Shown: positions 5,541 through 9,388 of the stretch, piece by piece
Position numbering within the stretch: position 1 is the first letter of the stretch
How the letters are laid out: every line of letters begins with the position of its first letter
Made by a program: the position numbers and the translations under genes
Assembly (NCBI RefSeq): GCF_002117445.1
Contig: NZ_CP019937.1
Coordinates: forward strand, 2,353,501 to 2,417,500
Direction of reading: 5' to 3'
Origin: Ketogulonicigenium robustum
GTDB lineage: Bacteria; Pseudomonadota; Alphaproteobacteria; Rhodobacterales; Rhodobacteraceae
DNA length: 64,000 bases
Notes under the pieces: model-generated
Told to the model about the DNA's origin: nothing
The model's input: the letters and a program-made list of their open reading frames with translations, nothing else
Databases searched by the model: none

Positions 5541-5990
5541 TCAAACAGCAAGGCGGGCCTCCCATGTTGCATCGCCGCTGATTGCCACGCGGTGGGTGCC
5601 ATCGGGCAGCGCAGCAAAAGACAGCGTCAGGGCGTGGGCGGGGGTCAGGCTGCCCAAACGGTCGGGCCATTCGATCAGGCAGATCGCGTCGGCGAAAGCA
5701 TCCGTCAAGCCCAGCTCGATCACCTCGTCTGGGTGGGTCAGGCGGTAGAGGTCGCTGTGCCAGATTTGCACATCCGCATCATAGGTTTGCACCAGCGTGA
5801 AGGTGGGCGAGGGCACATCCTCGTGCGGATTTTGCAGACGCGCGCGGATCAGGGCGCGGGCGAAAAATGACTTTCCGGCCCCAATCTGTCCCTCCAGCAG
5901 CAGAACGTCGCCGGCGTGCAAAAGCGCGGCAAAATGGGCGGCTAAGGCGGCGGTATCGGTTTCGGTGCGCAGCGCGATGTTCTGTTCCAT
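5541..5990 (-). CDS. tsaE: tRNA threonylcarbamoyladenosine biosynthesis ATPase TsaE
   Basis: P-loop ATPase that cycles the TsaB-TsaD complex during t6A37 modification of ANN-decoding tRNAs. It has 149 residues, the usual family size. The Walker A segment GQIGAGKS sits at residues 34-41 (Lys40), followed by the conserved SPTFTLVQTY and a C-terminal LIEWPDR segment. The ATG at 5990 was preferred over an in-frame ATG at 6026 because the protein then starts directly before the conserved domain. It is the second gene of the leftward cluster DivL-like, tsaE, addB, addA, with 49 nt to the upstream gene. Confidence 0.95.
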   Translation of the reverse strand: MEQNIALRTETDTAALAAHFAALLHAGDVLLLEGQIGAGKSFFARALIRARLQNPHEDVPSPTFTLVQTYDADVQIWHSDLYRLTHPDEVIELGLTDAFADAICLIEWPDRLGSLTPAHALTLSFAALPDGTHRVAISGDATWEARLAV

Positions 5991-6039: not shown

Positions 6040-7551
6040 TTACGCGATGTGGCGTACGGTCATTTCCGGTTCCAACAACCGCCGTGCCTCGAGCGAGCGG
6101 AAGCCGATCATGATCCGCCCCCCGCCGATGCTGCTGAGCCGTAGCTCGGTGCTAGGATCTAGCCTGCTCCACACGTGGGGCGTGCGGTCATTTTCGGGCT
6201 GGCGCAGCCCAGCGGTGGCCGCGCCAAGCGCGCTGGCCGAGAATTGCTTGTGCCACCTGTCGAACTCCGTCTCGAGCGAGAGCGGCGCCACACCGTCGGG
6301 CGGCAGCGACCACATCTGGTAATAGGCCGCGTTTGCAACGACCAGATTGCCCGAATGCGCAAAGACGGCAATGGCTTCCTCCAGCGCGCCGATCACGCCG
6401 TGCAGGGTGTCGATTTCGGCGCGGAATGCGCGGGTCACGCGAATTTCCGGGGATATATCCTCGAACAGCACGGCCATGGCATTGTCGGGGTAGGGTTGGG
6501 CAGTGACGCGAAACGTGCGGCCGTCGCCCAGGTGCCATGTCTCGGACAGGCTGCTGTGCAGCACGCCGTCGGCTTCCAAGGATGTCAGTTTTGCGCGCCA
6601 ATCCAGATAGTTGCGCGGCTCGGGCAGCACGTGCGAGGCACGCAACCTGTCAAAGAAACCGGCAAGGCTGGGGCGTTGCAGTAAGAAGCTTGTCGATAGG
6701 TCGGTCAGGTCGGTTAGCGCGGGGTTAAACTGCATCAGGCGGCGCTGGCGGTCGAAAAGGGCGATCCCCATCGGCAGCCCGGCATAGATCTGCGCGATGC
6801 CGTTCAAAAACTGCTTGCGGGCAGCCTCGGCTGCCGTTTGCGCGGTCACGTCCAATGCGAAACACATGGTTTGCGCCCCGCGGCTGATCTGCGAGATATG
6901 GTAGTCGCGGGGTTTGCCCTCGTGGGTCGCGAGGCTGGCCGTGTTGGCTTTGGCGGGAAACAGGCTGGGCAGCGGCCAGCCGAGATTGACCTGCGGCGGC
7001 AGCAAATCCAAATAGCTTTGGTTTGCCCAAACGACGCAGCCCTGATCATCCTCGACCCAGATGACCTGCGGGCTAGCGGCGGCCAGTGCCCCCAGAATTC
7101 CGTCGTCGCGGGTGGGCAGGGCGCCCTCGCCGGGCAGGCCCACCAGATCGACGCGGGTTAACCCGCCGCGCCGCAGCACCGTTAGCCTTTGCTGCGCATC
7201 CGGTGCGTCCAATGACAGCACGCCGTAATGCCCCAGCGCGGCCAGCTTGCGCGGCAGGTCGGCGAAGCGCAGCGACAGATGTGCGACTGCCTGCGCCTTG
7301 TTGGGGGGCAGCGCCCCTGCGACTACAGCGTCGACGTCACCCTTGGAATCGATCAGAACGCCATCTTCAAAAATCAGGGTCGCGATGCTGTGCGGCGCAT
7401 TGGCTTTACGCTGAGCGCTGCGTTTGCGGCCCCAAACCCACAGCATTCCTGCCGTGGCGCTAGCTGCTATGGTCGCCGAAATGGTTGTCGCCAGCCACGG
7501 GGGTAGCGAAAGAAAGCCAGACAGTTCGATTGTGCCAAATGGCGATTCCAT
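6040..7551 (-). CDS. DivL-like membrane PAS protein without a kinase domain
   Basis: A 503-residue protein with one N-terminal membrane segment (LPPWLATTISATIAASATAG, then WVWGRKR) followed by PAS-like domains. The second half carries LPEPRNYLDW and HLGDGRTFRV, which resemble the PAS_7-type domains of DivL. After the last PAS domain (GGGRIMIGFRSL) the protein ends within about 20 residues. No DHp helix and no HATPase N, G1 or G2 boxes are present. From memory, divL also precedes tsaE in Caulobacter, which supports the assignment. In Caulobacter DivL controls CckA and therefore CtrA; that role here is inference. The start at 7551 (MESPFGTIELSG) was preferred over 7593. A CtrA-type box lies 47-61 nt upstream. 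Confidence 0.7.
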   Translation of the reverse strand: MESPFGTIELSGFLSLPPWLATTISATIAASATAGMLWVWGRKRSAQRKANAPHSIATLIFEDGVLIDSKGDVDAVVAGALPPNKAQAVAHLSLRFADLPRKLAALGHYGVLSLDAPDAQQRLTVLRRGGLTRVDLVGLPGEGALPTRDDGILGALAAASPQVIWVEDDQGCVVWANQSYLDLLPPQVNLGWPLPSLFPAKANTASLATHEGKPRDYHISQISRGAQTMCFALDVTAQTAAEAARKQFLNGIAQIYAGLPMGIALFDRQRRLMQFNPALTDLTDLSTSFLLQRPSLAGFFDRLRASHVLPEPRNYLDWRAKLTSLEADGVLHSSLSETWHLGDGRTFRVTAQPYPDNAMAVLFEDISPEIRVTRAFRAEIDTLHGVIGALEEAIAVFAHSGNLVVANAAYYQMWSLPPDGVAPLSLETEFDRWHKQFSASALGAATAGLRQPENDRTPHVWSRLDPSTELRLSSIGGGRIMIGFRSLEARRLLEPEMTVRHIA

Positions 7552-7597
7552 ACAACAGCCCCGGCGCTTTACTGCCGGAAGCCTCGGGTTCAATGCC

Positions 7598-7612
7598 TTA
7601 ATAATTGGTTAA
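7598..7612 (-). promoter_or_regulatory. Candidate CtrA-binding box upstream of the DivL-like gene
   Basis: Read on the minus strand the site is TTAACCAATTATTAA, which fits the CtrA full-site pattern TTAA-N7-TTAA and includes the preferred TTAACC half. It lies 47-61 nt upstream of the DivL-like start codon, in a position to act on its promoter. This is a motif match only. AT-rich gaps can produce it by chance, but intergenic DNA here is mostly GC-rich. Confidence 0.5.
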
Positions 7613-7682: not shown

Positions 7683-7708
7683 TGAAAACAAGGCGCGCCG
7701 TGTTTTCA
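7683..7708 (-). terminator. Inverted repeat overlapping the regB stop codon
   Basis: Perfect 8-bp arms TGAAAACA and TGTTTTCA flank a GC-rich centre that contains GGCGCGCC. One arm includes the regB stop codon. On the minus strand this would form a hairpin at the end of regB, but no U-tract follows, so terminator function is uncertain. It may also protect the 3' end of the transcript. Confidence 0.35.
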
Positions 7709-9151
7709 GGCGCCAGTCCAGAAAGGACGGTTTTCACCAAAGCCGTCGATTGCGTCCAGCGGGGGGGCCTCTAGCAGGGCGCGGGGCCAGCTGACGGTCA
7801 CAACCGCACCGTGATCGGGGTCATCCACATCCGGAACCGCATTCGAGAAGCTGGGTCGCCCGCCCGAGCGTTCCAGAAGGGTTTTGGCGATGAACAGGCC
7901 CAGCCCCATCCCTTCGTAACCGGGGCGGCGCGCGGCGTTTTCGGTCGGGCGGCGGCGATGGACAAAGGGGTCGCCGATACGGCCGATCACCGACGGGGGG
8001 AAGCCCTCGCCGTCATCGCAAATCCGCACGCGCAGGGTCGTCGGGTCCCAGTAATATTCAACCCGCACGGTGGTTTGTGCAAAATCGACCGCATTCTGGA
8101 TCAGGTTGCGCAGGCCATGGATGACTTCGGGGCGGCGCAGGACGGTGGGTTGAGGGCCTGCGCTGGCTTCGACATCGTCGGCAACCAGAAAGACAACTTC
8201 TTTCCCGCGGGCCAGATGTGGCTCGGCGGCTTCGTGCAGCAGCGCCTCTAGCGGGGCGCGCAGCAGCAGGCGGTCTTCTTTGCCGGCACGGCCCATCGAA
8301 TGCAGGATGTCGCGGCAGCGGTTGGCCTGATCCAGCAGCAGCGCCGCATCGTCGCGCAGATCGGGCTGGCCATCCAGATCACGCACCAGTTCCGCTGCGA
8401 CTAGTTTGATCGTCGCAAGCGGGGTGCCCAGTTCATGCGCAGCCGCCGCCACGACCCCGCCCAGGTCGGTCAGCTTCTGCTCGCGCGCTAGGGCCATTTG
8501 CGTCGCCAGCAGCGCTTCGTTGATCTTTTGCAGTTCCAACGTGATCTGGCGGGCATAGACCGACAGGAAAATCACCCCGACGATCAGCGCCAGCCAGAAC
8601 CCGAACAGGAAGATGTCCGGCATCTCGAGGGTCGAGCCATCGGCCAGCACCATCGGCACGTAAAACACCCGCAGCAGCGAGATGACGACAATCGCCAGAC
8701 CCGCCAGCAGCAAGGTGCCGCGGCGCGTCAAGACCGCCGCGCCGATTGTGACCGGCGCCATGATCAGCAGCGCAAAGGGGTTGTTCAGCCCCCCGACCAG
8801 ATACAGCAGCATGCCCAGCTGCACGATATCCAGCATCAGGAACGACATCGCCTGGCGCGCCGACAGCCGCGTGCTTTGCGGGAACAAGACGGTCGACAGC
8901 ACGTTCACCGCCAGCGACAGGCCAATCGCGATGGCCACCGGCCCCACTGCAATGCGCAGGTGGAACAGCCCGACCGCAACGCAAACTGCCCCAGCCTGAC
9001 CTATGATGGCCATCCAGCGCACCAAGACCAGCGTGCGCAGCCGCACCAGATTGGAATCCCGTGTCGTGGTGAAAAGCTGGCTTTCGCTGCCAACATCGGG
9101 GAACAGGTCGGCTATGCCGGGCGCATCGGCGAGGATCGGTTTGGCAGCCAT
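7706..9151 (-). CDS. regB: Redox sensor histidine kinase RegB/PrrB
   Basis: Membrane histidine kinase of the RegB/RegA (PrrB/PrrA) global redox system. It has about six membrane segments in residues 45-200, with the conserved quinone-binding heptapeptide GGLNNPF at 120-126. The phosphorylated histidine is His239 in AAAHELGTPL. The redox-active cysteine of the family is Cys279 in DQANRCRDIL. The C-terminal ATPase domain shows the N box, DDGEGFP and GMGLGLFIAKTL. I chose the ATG at 9151 because AAGGA sits 6 nt before it; the in-frame ATG at 9172 has no good ribosome site. It is divergent from regA, with no senC/prrC between them. Confidence 0.95.
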   Translation of the reverse strand: MAAKPILADAPGIADLFPDVGSESQLFTTTRDSNLVRLRTLVLVRWMAIIGQAGAVCVAVGLFHLRIAVGPVAIAIGLSLAVNVLSTVLFPQSTRLSARQAMSFLMLDIVQLGMLLYLVGGLNNPFALLIMAPVTIGAAVLTRRGTLLLAGLAIVVISLLRVFYVPMVLADGSTLEMPDIFLFGFWLALIVGVIFLSVYARQITLELQKINEALLATQMALAREQKLTDLGGVVAAAAHELGTPLATIKLVAAELVRDLDGQPDLRDDAALLLDQANRCRDILHSMGRAGKEDRLLLRAPLEALLHEAAEPHLARGKEVVFLVADDVEASAGPQPTVLRRPEVIHGLRNLIQNAVDFAQTTVRVEYYWDPTTLRVRICDDGEGFPPSVIGRIGDPFVHRRRPTENAARRPGYEGMGLGLFIAKTLLERSGGRPSFSNAVPDVDDPDHGAVVTVSWPRALLEAPPLDAIDGFGENRPFWTGA

Positions 9152-9251
9152 GGCATGTCCTTGCGTCGTCATGAAAGTTCGCCGCCATTGTCTGCCGTGG
9201 CGCGCAAATGTTCAATCGCGCGCTTCTATTTGGTTAAACCCGCTCGCCCGC

Positions 9252-9276
9252 TGCGACAGCCGCGCAAAATGTCGCA
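9252..9276. promoter_or_regulatory. Candidate RegA-binding inverted repeat in the regB-regA gap
   Basis: TGCGACA and TGTCGCA form a perfect 7-bp inverted repeat with an 11-nt spacer. This fits the GCGNC...GNCGC pattern reported for RegA/PrrA sites. A further half-site, GCGAC, lies at 9283-9287 and another near 9370. The repeat sits roughly in the middle of the divergent promoter region, about 100 nt from each start codon, so autoregulation of both genes is plausible. No binding evidence is available. Confidence 0.6.
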
Positions 9277-9388
9277 TTTGATGCGACCGATTGACGCTTA
9301 AACACATGCGCATTAGGGTATCTGGCGCATTGAGCGAGCATGATTGCCCGTGACATGCCCAGAATGGCGCGACAGAAGGTATCGTCCG

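Follow-up and report, generated by a model that had tools for sequence, protein, structure and literature searches.

A short, kinase-less DivL downstream of a conserved CtrA-type box in Ketogulonicigenium robustum

In Ketogulonicigenium robustum, a gene for a short form of DivL that lacks the kinase region lies between tsaE and the sensor kinase gene regB, all three on the same strand of the 64-kb window (the whole stretch of DNA analysed, to which the positions in Table 1 refer). The intergenic gap between divL and regB contains a CtrA-type box. An alternative divL start, TTG at 7593, would give a protein of 517 aa. On the other side of regB, the gap to regA measures only ~170 nt (window positions 9173-9343) and leaves no room for senC, which separates regB from regA in Rhodobacter.

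Table 1. Genes, protein segments and regulatory site at the divL locus (window coordinates).
Feature	Coordinates	Strand	Basis and details
tsaE, next gene downstream	5541..5990	-	TIGR00150, 86.5 bits against a cut-off of 60.1; ATG at 5990
divL, short kinase-less form, 503 aa	6040..7551	-	ATG 7551, stop 6042-6040; ORF, Pfam, AlphaFold, family search, synteny
PAS fold D, residues 393-486	6094..6375	-	AlphaFold; 17 residues remain to the protein end
PAS fold C, residues 261-365, most conserved part	6457..6771	-	AlphaFold and Pfam PAS_7 at 260-372
Linker helix preceding PAS C, residues 248-258	6778..6810	-	Family alignment; FLNGIAQIYAG (family: FVQTLTKTFA)
PAS fold B, residues 163-234	6850..7065	-	AlphaFold and Pfam PAS_4 at 159-201
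PAS fold A, residues 55-138	7138..7389	-	AlphaFold only, without a Pfam match
N-terminal helix, residues 18-50, presumed to contain the membrane span	7402..7500	-	AlphaFold secondary structure and hydrophobic stretch in the translation
Full CtrA-type box, TTAACCAATTATTAA	7598..7612	-	Pattern TTAA-N7-TTAA; 46 nt between the box 3' end and the divL ATG
regB sensor kinase, next gene upstream	7706..9172	-	NF045988

Pfam returned only PAS families for the protein (PAS_7, PAS_8, and PAS_4) and neither HisKA nor HATPase. The AlphaFold model, computed from an input alignment of 64 family members (mean pLDDT 86), comprises one long N-terminal helix and four PAS folds and ends 17 residues after the last strand; the Caulobacter-type pseudokinase region, a DHp domain with Tyr at the phospho-acceptor site plus a CA domain, is absent from both the Pfam matches and the model. 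We read the protein as a membrane-anchored PAS array in which the hydrophobic helix would span the membrane. InterPro searches assigned one or two PAS domains to DivL of relatives (PMC6473078), a count that probably overlooks the weaker folds. These results bear out an earlier note, made from the DNA letters, that had described one membrane helix and PAS domains with no DHp or ATPase region in a gene directly before tsaE; the score of the downstream gene exceeds the NCBIfam cut-off for TsaE. The same note had placed a full CtrA box 47-61 nt upstream of the ATG, and TTAACCAATTATTAA does read there, from 7612 to 7598 on the coding strand.

The DivL identity that the note had proposed also holds: judged by synteny and family sequence, the protein is a DivL orthologue of the short Rhodobacterales form. 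With one genome sampled per genus, the family was matched in 109/120 Rhodobacteraceae genomes, mostly as open frames 500 to 570 codons long. The genome contigs yielded matches to an alignment query but none to the single protein. A TsaE-type P-loop ORF directly follows divL in 59 of the 66 complete loci, among them those of six relatives that retain HisKA. These six orthologues, 687 to 858 aa long with HisKA detected by Pfam, have His (three), Gln, Tyr, or Thr at the phospho-acceptor position, and inspection of their C-terminal parts revealed no DxGxG ATP-lid motif; they are similar to the long, degenerate DivL of Vega-Baray et al. (2022, PMC9430884), who mapped short and long DivL on a tree. 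Primers printed for qPCR of R. capsulatus divL (PMC9143464) provide a further link to the family. In one other genome, the forward primer matches exactly and the reverse primer with one mismatch within an open frame of 549 codons, which shares 37% identity with the studied DivL over 391 aa and carries a perfect box of its own; viral contigs scanned for the primer gave no match. The assignment draws on synteny, family sequence, and the primer match.

The divL box is the window's sole perfect TTAA-N7-TTAA (0.11 expected), and the 2.71-Mb genome has five perfect copies in all; 128 genomic sites match the pattern with up to one mismatch. In a second Ketogulonicigenium genome, divL has a perfect box with a different spacer, TTAACCCGGTATTAA. 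Another of the five perfect copies stands directly before a gene named dprA from its sequence (G000:C1:1470270-1470284), and the title of Brimacombe 2014 describes R. capsulatus dprA, a competence gene, as CtrA-regulated. One more lies between uvrB and the gene for a 238-aa predicted secreted protein (G000:C1:870579-870593), 5 nt before the open frame of the latter.

Alignment of the locus across Rhodobacteraceae, which the earlier note had suggested, revealed a near-universal box. Within a narrow window around each start, 84/97 short divL genes have a perfect copy, whereas shuffled sequences predict 0.13 and the reversed pattern gives 0; elsewhere in these loci, perfect boxes number 3 per 281.5 kb. 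Some sites were masked by long open frames upstream. In a wider window, a perfect box precedes divL in 90/100 genus-level genomes (three of the 100 genes have longer open frames), and a one-mismatch site is present at most of the remaining ten. Among named species, 75/80 have a perfect box in the narrow window and four more when it is widened (79/80). The six HisKA-bearing divL genes have no perfect box upstream. Given its frequency well above chance and its conservation in the family, we regard the divL box as a real candidate CtrA site. A kinase-less DivL with a CtrA box is the ordinary short form throughout Rhodobacteraceae, real and strongly conserved.

The 84 aligned promoters share the consensus TTAAC-N6-TTAACC(A/T)TT, followed by AA..TT at a fixed distance of 12-17 nt. 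If AA..TT is the -10 element, the box would span roughly -40 to -26. The same layout has been reported for promoters that CtrA activates, osp among them (PMC9430884), and the geometry at divL predicts activation. In K. robustum, the bases after TTAACCAATTATTAA (GGCATT...GAGGCT) poorly match the CC(A/T)TT and AA..TT elements of the family.

Two long DivL forms, G001 (716 aa) and G015 (661 aa), have C-terminal extensions in which HisKA is not detectable and a perfect box upstream; they are possible intermediates in kinase loss. In the tree, the HisKA clade lacks the box and the HisKA-less G015 has it, which suggests that the box arose around the time the kinase region was lost. The key branches are weakly supported, and we therefore claim no order of events for box gain and kinase loss.

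The studied DivL is an unusual member of its family. Among 40 aligned proteins it has the lowest mean identity (30%) and the most changes at conserved columns, 20 of 94, including positions in the linker before PAS C. There, the near-invariant FVQTLTKTFA between PAS B and PAS C is replaced by FLNGIAQIYA. DivL of the second Ketogulonicigenium genome is 56% identical to it overall and has the linker FLNGIGQIYA. Given this divergence, the coupling of the studied DivL to CckA may differ from that in relatives.

The genome also encodes CtrA, CckA, and ChpT. CtrA and CckA, assigned from sequence, are 82-89% and 53-58% identical, respectively, to their best matches in 30 genera. No DivK-like receiver was found among the 15 receiver-domain matches in the genome; the only single-domain receivers, two in number, sit beside che genes. 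A one-mismatch box, GTAAGACTGGGTTAA, lies 47 nt before the ctrA ATG and another, TTACCCGCGTTTTAA, ~55 nt before the first ATG of cckA; the only near site of chpT is 299 nt upstream. As 128 sites in the genome match with up to one mismatch, it is chiefly conservation in the family that makes the near-boxes of ctrA and cckA informative. In 30 other genera, the ctrA site, ~50 nt upstream, is GTAA-N7-TTAA in 28, perfect in one, and begins with ATAA in one, and cckA has a perfect box in 21/30.

These components fit a positive feedback loop, which we regard as the best explanation of the locus and a highly probable one. Phosphorylated CtrA would bind the perfect site, which lies at an activator position overlapping the -35 region, and activate divL. 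DivL would contact CckA and hold it in kinase mode through its PAS array, and CckA and ChpT would phosphorylate more CtrA, closing the loop with a positive sign. Since DivK and the DivK-binding kinase part of DivL are both gone, the loop would no longer take DivK input. Studies of relatives agree with the separate steps. In D. shibae, divL has a CtrA site and its expression is reduced in each of the three phosphorelay mutants (Wang et al. 2014, PMC4046655), R. capsulatus divL is down in ctrA knockouts (Fogg 2019, PMC6363796), and P. inhibens divL1 is repressed in ctrA and cckA mutants (2025 study, PMC12363192). R. capsulatus DivL promotes CtrA phosphorylation via CckA, according to a statement in PMC9143464 that cites Westbye 2018.

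The circuit is not new in kind. The earlier note had presented the feedback loop as possibly new, a suggestion that falls to Brilli et al. (2010, PMC2877005), who reported for cluster B Rhodobacterales a DivL without the kinase domain, the absence of DivK, and predicted CtrA control of ctrA, cckA, and divL. Earlier papers describe both the kinase-less DivL and CtrA-dependent divL expression, and our CtrA-divL finding therefore correctly recognizes an arrangement that was already known. New here are the breadth of conservation, the fixed promoter geometry, the conserved, weaker-looking GTAA site at ctrA, and the unusual DivL linker of the genus. The connection from CtrA to DivL that was predicted in 2010 from few genomes now extends to ~100 genera and 80 named species, with a divL site that is near-universal in short-DivL lineages.

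Three other accounts of the locus have to be weighed. CtrA could repress divL, which would turn the loop into negative feedback that curbs the activation of CckA. As the box overlaps the promoter core, CtrA bound there might instead obstruct polymerase, and CtrA represses some Caulobacter promoters; however, when D. shibae, R. capsulatus, or P. inhibens is deprived of CtrA, the divL transcript falls rather than rises, and we consider repression unlikely. A second account would explain why the elements downstream of TTAACCAATTATTAA match the family so weakly and why this DivL has the most changed conserved columns of the 40: the box would be a relic in the K. robustum lineage, conserved in the family but with its function lost as DivL diverged. 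Yet TTAACCAATTATTAA is intact and belongs to only five perfect copies in the genome, the same-genus genome retains a perfect copy, with another spacer, and near-boxes are kept at ctrA and cckA, all of which makes a relic quite improbable.

The protein might, finally, be an unrelated PAS sensor that sits before tsaE by chance. NCBIfam has no specific family model for it, a phmmer search against the PDB gave no match, and Foldseek against the PDB returned generic multi-PAS proteins only (DosP, FixL, PpsR, and others) with a TM-score on the query of at most 0.34, a result that does not discriminate. Against a chance neighbour stand the synteny, the sequence continuity with the family, including its long HisKA-bearing orthologues, and the match of the R. 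capsulatus divL primers within that family, so that we give this account hardly any credence.

Within the positive feedback loop, the candidate CtrA sites may be graded: perfect at divL and usually at cckA, GTAA-N7-TTAA at ctrA. R. capsulatus ctrA has the same GTAAC-N6-TTAAC site, at which CtrA binding was undetectable and the D51E variant bound with low affinity (Fogg 2019, PMC6363796). From the site conservation and these data we infer, tentatively, that, should the G weaken binding, CtrA-P would turn on its own activators ahead of ctrA, forming a two-threshold positive-feedback switch that replaced the DivK input when DivL lost its kinase region; in this genus, the signalling linker has been rewritten as well. 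We hold this elaboration to be a possibility that is more doubtful than probable. The order it implies, with the sites at divL and cckA stronger than that at ctrA, is a testable prediction. Since CtrA controls motility, competence, and gene transfer agents in the group, the loop matters for the commitment of a subpopulation to these states.

DivL of Caulobacter crescentus is likewise a membrane-anchored PAS protein upstream of CckA, and its gene presumably adjoins tsaE too; in contrast, it has a DivK-binding pseudokinase (DHp with Tyr for His, plus CA), whereas pseudokinase and DivK are both absent here. Osp of Rhodobacter sphaeroides offers another parallel as a CckA regulator under a CtrA-type site, located 54 bp upstream of the osp ATG. 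Osp, however, is a receiver-like CckA inhibitor that acts in negative feedback and exerts negative control of CckA in some relatives, whereas DivL, a PAS protein, reportedly promotes the kinase activity of CckA. The closest counterparts are the short DivL proteins of Rhodobacterales (R. capsulatus rcc00042, cluster B of Brilli et al., and the short DivL of Vega-Baray et al.), which have the same PAS-only architecture with no pseudokinase, no DivK, and a predicted CtrA site at divL and cckA. Compared with these, the 503-aa DivL of K. robustum is unusually divergent, and the linker motif before PAS C has been replaced in its genus.
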